From: Spirochaetales bacterium
GTDB lineage: Bacteria; Spirochaetota; Spirochaetia; UBA9216
Length of the DNA stretch: 64,000 bases
Assembly: GCA_016342585.1 (NCBI GenBank)
Contig: JAEINK010000003.1
Span: 1 to 64,000 of the forward strand
Reading direction: 5' to 3'
The position numbers and the translations under genes are program-made. Under the pieces are notes generated by a model. That model saw nothing but the letters and a program-made list of their open reading frames with translations. It did no database searches and was not told the origin of the DNA. This document shows, in pieces, positions 6,117 through 46,839 of the stretch (position 1 is the stretch's first letter; each line of letters opens with the position of its first letter).

Positions 6117-7748
6117 TTAGTTACCAGCCATCATTGCCGCAATGTCTTCTTTCACATCACCGACAGCCTTTATATTGAAGTTGTCAACCAACACCTTGGC
6201 GACAGCAGGTGAAAGGAAGGCGGGAAGTGTGGGCCCGAGCCTGATCCCCTTCACACCCAGGTGGAGGAGGGCCAGGAGAACAGCCACTGCCTTTTGCTCA
6301 TACCATGCTATATCAAAGGATAAGGGAAGGTCGTTCAAACTGTCAAGTCCGAATACTTCCTGAAGCTTTAGAGCGATAACGACCAGAGAGTAGGAGTCAT
6401 TACATTGACCGGCATCCAGTACTCTTGGGATTCCGCCGATGTCGCCAAGGTTGAGCTTGTTGTACCTGTATTTTGCACAACCAGCAGTCATGATGATGGT
6501 ATCTTTAGGCAACTCTTCGGCCACTTCGGTAAAGTAACTTCTTCCCTTCTGTCGACCGTCACAACCAGCCATAACAACAAACCGTTTGATTGCTCCCGAT
6601 TTTACAGCGTCTACAACCTTATCGGCCAGAGCAAGCACCTGGTTATGGGCAAATCCACCTACAATTTCTCCTGTTTCAATTTCTGTAGGAGAGGCGCAGG
6701 TTTTCGCAAGTTCGATAAGCTCTGAAAAATCTTTATTTCCATCTGTTCCTGCTTCAATGTGTTTAGCACCGGGGTATCCTGCCATTCCTGTGGTAAAGAT
6801 TCTGTCCTTATAGGCATCCTTAACAGGAACGATACAGTTGGTCGTCATGAGGATGGGGCCGTTGAAGGAGGCGAATTCCTTATCCTGTTTCCACCAGGCG
6901 TTTCCATAGTTTCCCACGAAGTGATCATACTTTTTGAAGGCGGGGTAGTAGTTAGCCGGGAGCATTTCACTGTGAGTATACACATCAACACCGGTTCCCT
7001 CGGTCTGAGAAAGAAGCTGTTCCATATCTTTCAGGTCGTGACCGGAAATCAGGATTCCGGGGTTCCCTTGAACACCAATGTTTACACTTGTAATTTCGGG
7101 ATTACCGTATGTAGATGTATTCGCTCCATCAAGCAGAGCCATCCCGGCAACTGAGAATTCTCCAGCCTTGAGGACCATGGCTACCATCTCATCAACTGAT
7201 AGATCCTTTGTTGTAGAAGCTAGGGCTTCCATGAAGAAACCATAGAGATCTATATTTTCTGAACCGAGTACAGCCGCATGGTCAGCGTATGCCGCTACAC
7301 CCTTGAGACCATAGATAAGGAGTTCTCGAAGGGAGCGAACATCTTCGTTTTCGGTAGCAAGAACTGATGCAATTTCAAAAGCATTGATGTAGTCTGCCTC
7401 ATTTGAAGGGTTCCAGACAGCGGCACCGGGAAGATCTCCGGATAACCCTGCTTTCTCAGCAAGCTCAGTTTTTATCTTGAGGCCTTCGGAAATAAGCTCT
7501 TTGAATCTCTCTTCGTCGAAGTTTGCATTGGTGATTGTAGCAAAAAGACCCTCTGCTACGAATCTTCCTTCTCTGTTTCCAAGTTTCCCTTTCTTCTGGA
7601 GTTCTTCTCCATAGACGGCAATTCCCTTAAGAACATAGATCAGAACATCCTGGTATCCTGCTGTGGTATCTGGTTTTCCACATACACCCTTTATTTTACA
7701 TCCGCTATTTCCGGCGGCTTCCTGACACTGATAACAAAACATACTCAT
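6117..7748 (-). CDS. hcp: Hybrid-cluster protein / hydroxylamine reductase
   Basis: [24 protein letters not shown]-terminal cluster motif; [42 protein letters not shown]. Confidence 0.95.
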
Positions 7749-7808
7749 TTCAATTTCTCCTTGTGTGTGAGTTATGCTATGACTATAGTAGAGTTGTGAT
7801 ATGATAAC

Positions 7809-7824
7809 CGTAACATATGTTACG
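7809..7824. promoter_or_regulatory. Putative HcpR operator between hcp and hcpR-like gene
   Basis: Perfect 16-bp palindrome CGTAACATATGTTACG in the divergent promoter. Confidence 0.7.
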
Positions 7825-7837
7825 AAAGGGAAATTAA

Positions 7838-8524
7838 ATGAGAAAAGATCAATTTTCCGCTCTCTCCTGTACCAATCTGTTTAAAGGCATTCAGGATGAT
7901 GAGATGGATAAACTGATAGAAACTGCGCCTCCAACCATCAGAACTTTTCACAAGGATGCCGTTATGAGCTTTCAAGGGGATGAATACAACGAGCTGATGA
8001 TAATCCTTGCAGGGGAGCTCTCTGCCGAGATACTCAATCCTAATGGAAAGAAAATTATCATAGAAACATTGAATAAATCTTCAGCCGTCGCTACGGGGGT
8101 TCTATTTGCCGAGGATAATACACTGCCTGTAACTTTGAAGGTCGTCAAAGAGGTGGAGATTGCCCTCTTTACTAAAAAAACAGTTTTGAAATTTTGTCAG
8201 ATGAATGAACGCTTCCTTTTAAACTATATGCAGGATATGGGGGATAAGGTGATCTTCCTGGCCGAAAAGATCCGCCTTTTCAGGTTTAAATCCATAAATC
8301 AAAAGGTGGCAGGCTATCTGCTGAACTTGAGTATCAAGCAGGGGGCAGACAGTGTCAGGATGACTTACTCTCTGGAGCACCTGGCAGACCTTTTCGGGAT
8401 TGCAAGACCCTCTCTTTCACGGGTTCTGTCTGAGTTTTATGATCAGGCCATATTAAAAAAAGAGGGAAGAATAATGCATATCCTTGATAAGCAAGAGCTT
8501 GAGTATATGCTGGAAGGGGAATAG
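7838..8524 (+). CDS. Crp/Fnr-family regulator, HcpR-like
   Basis: cNMP-binding-like fold plus [22 protein letters not shown]; divergent from hcp. Confidence 0.82.
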
Positions 8525-8553: not shown

Positions 8554-9211
8554 TTAAAATATATTTTCGAGCAGTTTTTTATCTTCTATTCTAATACTTT
8601 TTTTGTTCTTTACTAATATTCCCTCGGATTCCATTTCCGATATGGCTCTGGAGACCGCTTCCCGGGAGCATCCTATTTTCCCTGCTAAACCGGTCACCGT
8701 AACAGGAAACTCGAATTTTTCTCTCCGTTTATTGGGAGAGGCTGTTGTGTGGAGGTGTTTTCCATATTCAGCGTGCTCAGCTGATAGAAGCGTATAGGCT
8801 ATCTTCTGTTTGACGGTTTTAAGTGACATTATCTCGATAGTATCCGTCAGGTGAGTCAGTTTTTTTGAAATGCCTGAAATAAAAGAGATCATTGCCTCTC
8901 TGTCTTCCAGATAATCCAGGAGCAGTGAGTATTCGACTTCAATAATCCTGGTATCTTTCGAGGCTATCAGCCATCCCGGATAGGGCTCCCCGGTAAAAAC
9001 AATCAGCTCCGCGAAGAGTTCTCCCGGGGTAAACTCTTTTATCACTATCTCCTTTCCTGAGGAAAGGAGATAGTGATAATCTGATTCTACCGGAAACAAC
9101 ATTCCCCAGAGCATGGCATTTTTCATGTGCATTATGAAGGGTTTCACCTTTTGTCAGGTTGATATGCTTTCCCCTGGCAAAAAGTGCTAACTCTTTTGAG
9201 TTTCTATCCAT
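8554..9211 (-). pseudogene. Crp/Fnr-family regulator interrupted by a frameshift
   Basis: Two overlapping minus-strand ORFs (8939..9211 N-term ...VVSGRIRLSLS; 8554..9147 ...SSGKEIVIKEFTPGELFAE...GCSREAVSRAI) together reconstitute one Crp protein. Confidence 0.75.
9039..9079. repeat. Perfect inverted repeat, 19-bp arms and 3-nt loop, inside the Crp gene
   Basis: TTATCACTATCTCCTTTCC-TGA-GGAAAGGAGATAGTGATAA. Confidence 0.95.
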
Positions 9212-9224
9212 GAAATCTATCTTA

Positions 9225-9548
9225 TCATGGCCGGGGTGTTTTTGCGAACAGAACCCTTAATGGGTTCTCATTGCTTTTATTTTCAATGGCGTGCGGAATA
9301 TTTTTTGGGCTTTCGATAATACAATCTTTGTCTGCCGCTTCACGCTCTTCTCCTACTTCGATCCATGCTTCTCCTGCCAGAATATAAAAGAAAACATCAA
9401 CCGGAGTTGTATGGGTATTAAGTCTTGCTCCGGGATCCAGGGTCAGATGCACCGCATGTGCCTCGGGTATACTGTAAATTTTCTGAGCCTGTACTCCAAT
9501 TTTGGTGGCAACAATTTCTCCATCGAATGCTTTGCTTATTTTCATCAT
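9225..9548 (-). CDS. Small cupin-domain protein
   Basis: LDPGARLNTHTTPVDVFFYILAGEAWIEVGEE; start ATG overlaps the TGA of the upstream Fe-S ORF (ATGA). Confidence 0.75.
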   Translation of the reverse strand: MMKISKAFDGEIVATKIGVQAQKIYSIPEAHAVHLTLDPGARLNTHTTPVDVFFYILAGEAWIEVGEEREAADKDCIIESPKNIPHAIENKSNENPLRVLFAKTPRP

Positions 9549-9718
9549 TTCACTCCTGCTTTATTGGTCTTAAGGATAATACAATCCTTTATTTCTACTT
9601 TACCTTTTGAGGCGGCAATGGAAAATTCGGTACAGTCTGAATACCCTCATCCCCCGCAGTTTAGTCCCGGGAGGATGGATATGATAGTCTCCGGTCTCTG
9701 TTGCGGGAAAGGCCGCAT
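9545..9718 (-). CDS. Small [4Fe-4S]-domain ORF with in-frame TGA (candidate selenocysteine at codon 24) or nonsense-disrupted gene
   Basis: Translation with TGA as U: MRPFPQQRPETIISILPGLNCGGUGYSDCTEFSIAASKGKVEIKDCIILKTNKAGVK; C-x2-U-x4-C-x16-C matches the spacing of the Fe4S domain (PF04060-type); absent from ORF track because of TGA 9649-9647. Confidence 0.55.
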
Positions 9719-9917
9719 AGACGGGACCTGCCGAGAAGGATCCTATGAGCAATGAAAGAAGACGTCCTTTAATGCCGGACCCATTTCCCAACCCTTTTCT
9801 TATGACTTCTGGTGGAACCCCGATGGTTATGAGAGCCGTTATGATGAGGACCGGTGGCAGGATCTGCAGCATCTCAATTAGGAATCCTGCTGTAAGAATA
9901 ATCATAATAAATGTCAT
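9600..9917 (-). pseudogene. Permease (ArsP/YraQ-like) N-terminal half, probably truncated
   Basis: LPPVLIITALITIGVPPEVIRKGLGNGSGIKGRLLSLLIGSFSAGPVYAAFP looks like a permease half; the following residues are non-family and overlap the Fe-S frame. Confidence 0.5.
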
Positions 9918-31717: not shown

Positions 31718-31741
31718 GTTTATTGTATCGATACAATAAAC
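31718..31741. promoter_or_regulatory. Putative PdxR operator
   Basis: 24-bp perfect palindrome GTTTATTGTATCGATACAATAAAC upstream of pdxS. Confidence 0.75.
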
Positions 31742-31867
31742 TGTTTTTATGACTTTTTTGATTGAAATATAGAATCTATATGGGTACAAATTAAAGGTTA
31801 TCAAACAAGATGTCAATAAAAATCGATACAAAATCTAAATATTGACTATATATACAAAAAAACGTAA

Positions 31868-31887
31868 AATTGTATCGTAACAATAAA
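31868..31887. promoter_or_regulatory. Second PdxR-like site near pdxR
   Basis: ATTGTATCGTAACAATAAA resembles the palindrome at 31718-31741. Confidence 0.5.
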
Positions 31888-45112: not shown

Positions 45113-45149
45113 AGTTTTTCCGTTTGCGAGTGCTCTCTCAAATAGAGAC

Positions 45150-45180
45150 AAAAAAAAGACAGCCACGGCTGTCTTTTTTT
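45150..45180. terminator. Bidirectional terminator
   Basis: AAAAAAAGACAGCC-AC-GGCTGTCTTTTTTT. Confidence 0.92.
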
Positions 45181-45189
45181 ATTCCTGTT

Positions 45190-46839
45190 TTAATACCCAT
45201 CCGATTTTGCTCGATTCGAATCTTTTTTATACAATTCGCTATATACAAATCCTCTGTTCTTCAGATTCTCCCTGATAGGATCAGGGAAGGGGACGTATCG
45301 CCAGAATACGGATCTGGCTTCCTTTTCCAGTTTCTGGGTTCCTTCACTCTCTTTGGTAATCCAAAGGTAGTAGTCCTGAACAAAGCTCTCTTTTATATCA
45401 CCCTTCATCCTTCTTTCGGTGAAGTAATCATAGTACCTTCCGGTAAGCCCCTCTTCCATCCAGTAATGCTGGGCCTTTTCCTTGGCTACCTGCCACCTAA
45501 GATCACCAAGAGCCATTATTATGGCCTCTTTAAGATTTTTAGGATAAAGGGGGATACCGATTCGACCCCGGCTGGTGGCTCTATTGAATTTTTCGAAAGG
45601 CTCCCAGCAGACACCACGTTCTCCATAGCAGGGAAGGATTATCACATAAGGTATAATCCTGTTTGTCTGCCGTTTGAATGTTCTCTTAAAGACGCCGGGA
45701 TCAATTGCTTCAACCGCGGCAAACTCTATAGTGATGTTTTCCCTGGTTCCCCACTCCCTTATGTTGGGACGAAAATACTGTTTCATCAGTATGGGGAAGT
45801 GATTTCCCTGTCTTCCTACCGACATTTTTGCCAGCTGCCTGAGTGTATTAATCTCATTAAGCAGAACCTTGGCATCCACCCTGGTTTCTACACCCAGTTC
45901 CTTTGCTTTAAGCTGGAGAGACCTGTAGTTTTCATCTATCCTTTCAAGTTCCAGGTATCCCCTGGTAATATCTTTATCGATGGTAGACATTTCCCGCATA
46001 AGATTGGAAACCTCTGACAGGACCTGTCGCTGGGGAGCGTCATATCCCTCTTTGAGTTCAGGAAATTGGGGGTGCTGGTTATGGTGGTGAAGTATCTTCA
46101 GTTTCTCCATAACCATATTTTCACAACTTTCCAGGGTGCCCATCTTGTTTCGGATGGTTCCCATATGAATTTCCCGGCCTCCCCGGGCTTTATCCAGCTG
46201 GGCCTGAATTTTAGAGTTATCTTTTTTAGCCGACGGTTTTGTCTCATCGGTTGCCGAAGGATTAACCTGTCCCGAACCTACTTTCCTTAACCATTCATCC
46301 ATATAGTAAAATGGCTCTGCTTCGTCATGTTCCACGATGATTTTTGATAAAGTTTTTCGCTGTTCCGGAGAGATGATGTTGGGCAGGAGATAACCCAATC
46401 TGAAGGCTGTCTGTTTTGGCCCGGAAAAACCGGGGCCTACCTTGGAGGCCACAGATGTCATCAGATTCCAGTAAGCCGAGATAATTTTTCCCCGGTACAG
46501 AGATTTATCTTTGGGATCCTGGGCATTTATAAACTGGGTAAGAAGTTTATGGAGTCTCTGAGAGACCTCGCCCTCATTGGATAGAACTTTTTTATAAAAT
46601 TCCTTATCTAAAAAATCTTTATTGGGAGTATCTGATTCTATTCTTGAAGGTAATACAAATGAGGTCTTAGAAAAATCCACCTCATCATTTGGGGTTTCAT
46701 CCTGAACATTTGAGTTATTCGATTCAAATAAATCACCAAAATCAGGCGTTGAAGTCTGTGAAGCTGATGGGTCTATACCCATCAGGTCGGCAATATCAGA
46801 ATCTATCGACCCGCCATAAAGGTTATTATCATCATTCAT
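45190..46839 (-). CDS. Protein of unknown function (possibly spirochaete-specific)
   Basis: Intact 549-aa ORF; low-complexity N-terminus; no recognised motif. Confidence 0.6.
   Translation of the reverse strand: MNDDNNLYGGSIDSDIADLMGIDPSASQTSTPDFGDLFESNNSNVQDETPNDEVDFSKTSFVLPSRIESDTPNKDFLDKEFYKKVLSNEGEVSQRLHKLLTQFINAQDPKDKSLYRGKIISAYWNLMTSVASKVGPGFSGPKQTAFRLGYLLPNIISPEQRKTLSKIIVEHDEAEPFYYMDEWLRKVGSGQVNPSATDETKPSAKKDNSKIQAQLDKARGGREIHMGTIRNKMGTLESCENMVMEKLKILHHHNQHPQFPELKEGYDAPQRQVLSEVSNLMREMSTIDKDITRGYLELERIDENYRSLQLKAKELGVETRVDAKVLLNEINTLRQLAKMSVGRQGNHFPILMKQYFRPNIREWGTRENITIEFAAVEAIDPGVFKRTFKRQTNRIIPYVIILPCYGERGVCWEPFEKFNRATSRGRIGIPLYPKNLKEAIIMALGDLRWQVAKEKAQHYWMEEGLTGRYYDYFTERRMKGDIKESFVQDYYLWITKESEGTQKLEKEARSVFWRYVPFPDPIRENLKNRGFVYSELYKKDSNRAKSDGY

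Follow-up and report, generated by a model that had tools for sequence, protein, structure and literature searches.

A perfect palindrome at the frame break of a Crp/Fnr-family regulator gene: most likely the scar of a templated frameshift

Why should a perfect palindrome lie exactly where a bacterial regulator gene changes its reading frame? The question is raised by positions 9039-9079 of the window, the whole stretch of 64,000 nucleotides of Spirochaetales DNA that was analysed here. Such a structure might be a device that controls the gene, an insertion, a product of sequencing, or the trace of the mutation that broke the frame. The palindrome is most likely the scar of a frameshift templated by the hairpin, in a regulatory operon undergoing decay.

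The regulator is represented by two open reading frames:

8939-9211, minus strand: N-terminal reading frame of the regulator, with its start at 9211 and in frame with the relatives up to the palindrome
8554-9147, minus strand: remainder of the regulator, whose homologous part covers 8557-9069 and contains a cNMP_binding fragment and HTH_Crp_2, with no internal stops

These lie in different frames, and jointly they correspond to one continuous protein in the relatives, which bears out the earlier reading of a regulator split over two frames with the switch inside the hairpin. The change of frame coincides exactly with the palindrome. Pfam domains PF00027 (partial) and PF13545 score above the cut-off and place the protein in the Crp/Fnr superfamily; the PF00027 match is only partial because of the frameshift. 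The initial annotation had spoken of a Crp gene. The superfamily holds but Crp proper does not, as the NCBIfam Crp equivalog scores 36.8 bits where 266 are required, and matches only the C-terminal part; the regulator is thus a member of the Crp/Fnr superfamily and not Crp itself. A second intact copy was not found in the source genome, where the sole other match is a distant paralogue (24% identity) that adjoins the regulator at 7838-8524 on the plus strand. Downstream of the break, 171 C-terminal codons are conserved and free of stops, so that the lesion, if real, must be recent. This stretch fits a recent event, and it is also compatible with an error or with a gene that is still in use. 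As a separate observation, at positions 6117-8524 an intact Crp/Fnr regulator and the gene for a hybrid cluster protein (hydroxylamine reductase) are arranged divergently, a pairing that we take to suggest a nitrosative-stress regulator.

The palindrome itself is composed of three parts:

9039-9058, plus strand: arm 1, the downstream arm on the minus coding strand, which encodes the conserved G-K-E-I-V-I region; the probable template arm
9059, no strand assigned: centre, a single base; in the folded strand the loop is 3 nt, 9058-9060
9060-9079, plus strand: arm 2, the upstream arm on the coding strand, which holds a stretch of 7 nt (6 nt in six relatives); the probable rewritten arm

Arms 1 and 2 are exact reverse complements of each other, giving 20-bp arms and a 1-nt centre as duplex DNA, while the folded single strand forms 19 pairs with a 3-nt loop. 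The hairpin previously described here as 19-bp arms around a TGA is therefore real, and that description is the same object seen as a folded strand. RNA folding of an 81-nt stretch around the palindrome gave -39 kcal/mol (z = -6.9 against shuffled sequences), with 19 pairs in the stem. A search of the hairpin against Rfam returned no match, and neither arm occurs elsewhere in the genome at up to 2 mismatches. A Rho-independent terminator was considered and rejected, because the hairpin lies within a coding region, has a T run on neither side and is absent from the terminator scan.

A coding palindrome of such length had been called unusual, and the survey agrees. Apart from 9039-9079, close-set perfect inverted repeats in the 64-kb window have arms of at most 14 bp. 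In the 1.46 Mb surveyed of the 5.0-Mb source genome, two palindromes have arms of at least 18 bp, both in fact at least 20 bp: the present one and one with 21-bp arms at 15900-15942 of L095. In eight order-3 Markov simulations matched in size to 1.46 Mb, the longest arm was 15 bp and none reached 16 bp. A few long palindromes occur in relatives too; G003 has two with arms longer than 20 bp in 0.52 Mb. Of the 18 palindromes with arms of 14 bp or more that were listed from three genomes, 9039-9079 alone lies well within a protein-coding gene of recognised homology. Three others fall within mechanically called reading frames, two of which are short, and the third (45124-46017, plus strand) overlaps a longer reading frame on the opposite strand.

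Several of these repeats deserve a description of their own. The palindrome in L095 (G000:C34) is perfect, with 21-bp arms and a 1-nt centre, and spans the likely start codon and 5' leader of a large, sensor-like gene whose translation bears a GGEEF-type motif at the C-terminus; it may have a similar origin to 9039-9079 and may affect translation initiation. The two in G003 (L189, 19739-19787; L187, 170-215) are perfect as well, with 21-22-bp arms and 4-5-nt loops, and are located outside any long reading frame. Within the window, 31719-31887 holds an imperfect inverted repeat of 33 nt (76%) with its arms 103 nt apart.

Comparison with homologues indicates what has changed at the site. Six relatives were compared (G002, G003, G005, G008, G054 and L131), the best being about 54% identical over almost the whole protein, and each of them reads through the site in a single frame. 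In all six, two residues (6 nt) separate the R-L-S-like stretch from the L-S-S/T-G-K/R-E-like one. Here the spacer is 7 nt, which match exactly, as a reverse complement, the equidistant 7 nt of the opposite arm; the latter encode part of the conserved K-E-I-V-I region. The conserved residues flanking the break are present on both sides; the lesion is therefore a net gain of one nucleotide in a short tract and not an inserted element. Likewise, alignment at the SLS-SSGKE region, where a check for an insertion had been proposed, gave a spacer that differs by +1 nt only. No comparable palindrome or inverted repeat was found at the DNA level in the five relatives whose DNA was inspected (up to about 54% identity), so the situation that would have spoken against a lesion, the same palindrome in an intact frame of orthologues, was not encountered. 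A scan of named genomes with an alignment returned distant relatives from spirochaete metagenomes, such as Candidatus Thalassospirochaeta sargassi and Spirochaetales bin_125, with no relative of the same genus among them; with the protein alone it returned no relatives, and a scan of viral contigs was empty.

These observations point with good probability to a quasipalindrome template switch that recently put this Crp/Fnr-family regulator out of frame and abolished its function. An imperfect inverted repeat was probably present at the site in the ancestral gene. During replication the polymerase would have stalled, and the nascent strand would have folded back, used one arm as the template for part of the other and then rejoined its proper template, which would leave the repeat perfect and the coding sequence longer by one. 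The template would be the arm that encodes the conserved G-K-E-I-V-I, the rewritten arm the one adjoining R-L-S, and the copied tract perhaps about 1 to 13 nt. Two marks of such an event are seen: the product is a perfect inverted repeat, and the altered stretch, 7 nt in place of a 6-nt spacer, corresponds to the opposite arm as its reverse complement. When the local peptide was recoded synonymously in 200,000 samples, the complementary inner flank appeared in 0.33%, the outer flank in 0.07% and both together never. Since complementarity of the flanks is so rare by chance, copying may have extended to part of the outer arm as well. The ancestral repeat itself is postulated rather than proven: its flanks are rare in the recodings, and the relatives' DNA holds no similar repeat.

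The neighbouring genes provide a context in which such a lesion could persist:

9225-9548, minus strand: cupin gene, intact and immediately upstream of the regulator, with 64-72% identity to the neighbour gene in two relatives
9554-9917, minus strand: remnant of an ArsP_1/FeS permease, with a central stretch of about 70 residues and a C-terminal Fe-S motif left in different frames and an in-frame TGA at 9647-9649

The order permease-cupin-regulator is common to the window and relative G005 (L052), where the permease counterpart has ArsP_1 and an Fe-S domain. The cupin is also found upstream of the regulator in G003 (L051), and in G002 and G008 the permease is again close to the regulator. In G003 and G005, the regulator beside a cupin and an ArsP-type permease has the same domains and gene order as in the window, whereas here the regulator is frameshifted and the permease is a remnant. 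Relative to those genes, the first permease reading frame and the N-terminus of the second are lost, an internal deletion of about 85 residues is accompanied by a change of frame, and the in-frame TGA falls where the Fe-S motif has a conserved Cys. Selenocysteine at this TGA was rejected: no SelB match reached the cut-off in the genome, so the codon is best read as a stop, and the gene is broken elsewhere too. An operon already in decay, as the permease remnant suggests, would account for the tolerance of a frameshift in the regulator.

The strongest competitor is an artefact of sequencing, amplification or assembly, in which a polymerase switched templates at an imperfect hairpin of the library, or a consensus error arose, and produced a palindrome that is absent from the cell. 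Template switching at hairpins occurs in vitro as well, the assembly is fragmented into 127 contigs with 5.35% contamination, and the remainder of the regulator looks conserved and has no stops. Against this, the site lies within a 196-kb contig, so that read support is presumably consistent, and a general artefact would sit poorly with just one other such palindrome in 1.46 Mb. Nor does a sequencing error account for the truncation, internal deletion and stop in the permease. Because the permease of the same operon carries several independent and unrelated lesions, true and recent pseudogenisation of the regulator is preferred and a sequencing or assembly error is less likely; we consider an artefact doubtful, and the lesion would then be present in the living genome.

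An ordinary insertion of one nucleotide, by slippage or at random and with or without a substitution, could have completed an imperfect hairpin by chance, and one or two changes could suffice, depending on the ancestral residues. For slippage, the changed arm offers no homopolymer run longer than 3. The earlier suggestion of a frameshift by replication slippage is thereby divided, with a true frameshift supported and simple slippage not. More generally, the untemplated completion of a 20-bp perfect palindrome would be a coincidence when set against the simulations, which makes this explanation improbable.

A functional reading, in which the hairpin governs ribosome slippage or a reversible mutation of the regulator, could appeal to the stable hairpin placed precisely where the frame changes and to two reading frames that are otherwise intact. 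For ALTERNATIVES, however, a programmed frameshift would lead one to expect a conserved site, and conservation is absent: the frame is unbroken in 6/6 relatives and the palindrome missing from 5/5 whose DNA was read. Inspection of the sequence revealed nothing recognisable as a +1 slippery site accompanied by a stop and, upstream, an SD-like sequence; the lack of an Rfam match and the degenerate operon speak against it too. A programmed frameshift or switch, one of the options raised initially, is accordingly very unlikely. The same low probability is given to the variant in which the hairpin is a reversible mutational switch and template-switch events toggle the regulator in and out of frame, with phase variation of its regulon, and the one assembly gives no sign of it. 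The remaining option of a recent palindromic insertion, by a mobile element whose appearance a perfect palindrome within a gene does have, can be dismissed almost entirely, as 7 nt here against 6 nt in the relatives is a net change of +1 nt and not of the about 41 nt that an element would add, and this dispersed-element reading finds a single copy and no further ones in the genome.

A templated origin would make the locus a clear natural case of a hairpin-templated frameshift that breaks a bacterial regulator, in a lineage that has probably gone unexamined for such events. It also advises caution: where a frame breaks at a striking perfect palindrome, the palindrome can be a mutation scar and is not necessarily a regulatory device.

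The mutational process behind the palindrome is most likely of an already known kind. In quasipalindrome template switching, as described for E. coli (PMC7202029), the polymerase stalls at an imperfect inverted repeat, takes an arm of the nascent strand as its template and then goes back, so that the repeat ends up closer to perfect. That source cites Ripley 1982 for a template-switching model of frameshift mutation and describes the thyA quasipalindrome hotspot of Dutra and Lovett 2006. Mutations of this kind resemble the present locus in the perfect inverted repeat in coding sequence, the small net change of length within an arm that exactly matches the other arm, and the frameshift; here, by contrast, the imperfect ancestral repeat is deduced through distant relatives and not observed, and the host, a spirochaete-like bacterium, is uncultured. 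For bacteria, PMC7023247 cites van Noort 2003 on the correction of repeats to perfect ones. In coding genes of yeast, the homogenisation of inverted-repeat arms is documented in PMC8604942, where likewise one arm has served to rewrite the other and the resulting changes cluster within a protein-coding gene; the yeast cases described are amino acid replacements, whereas here the frame is lost. Perfect inverted repeats in protein-coding genes are also found in the mitochondria of Nematomorpha, for which template switching has been proposed (PMC6649704), but those repeats are many and long and both of their arms encode conserved protein, in contrast to the single, gene-breaking 20-bp event at 9039-9079.
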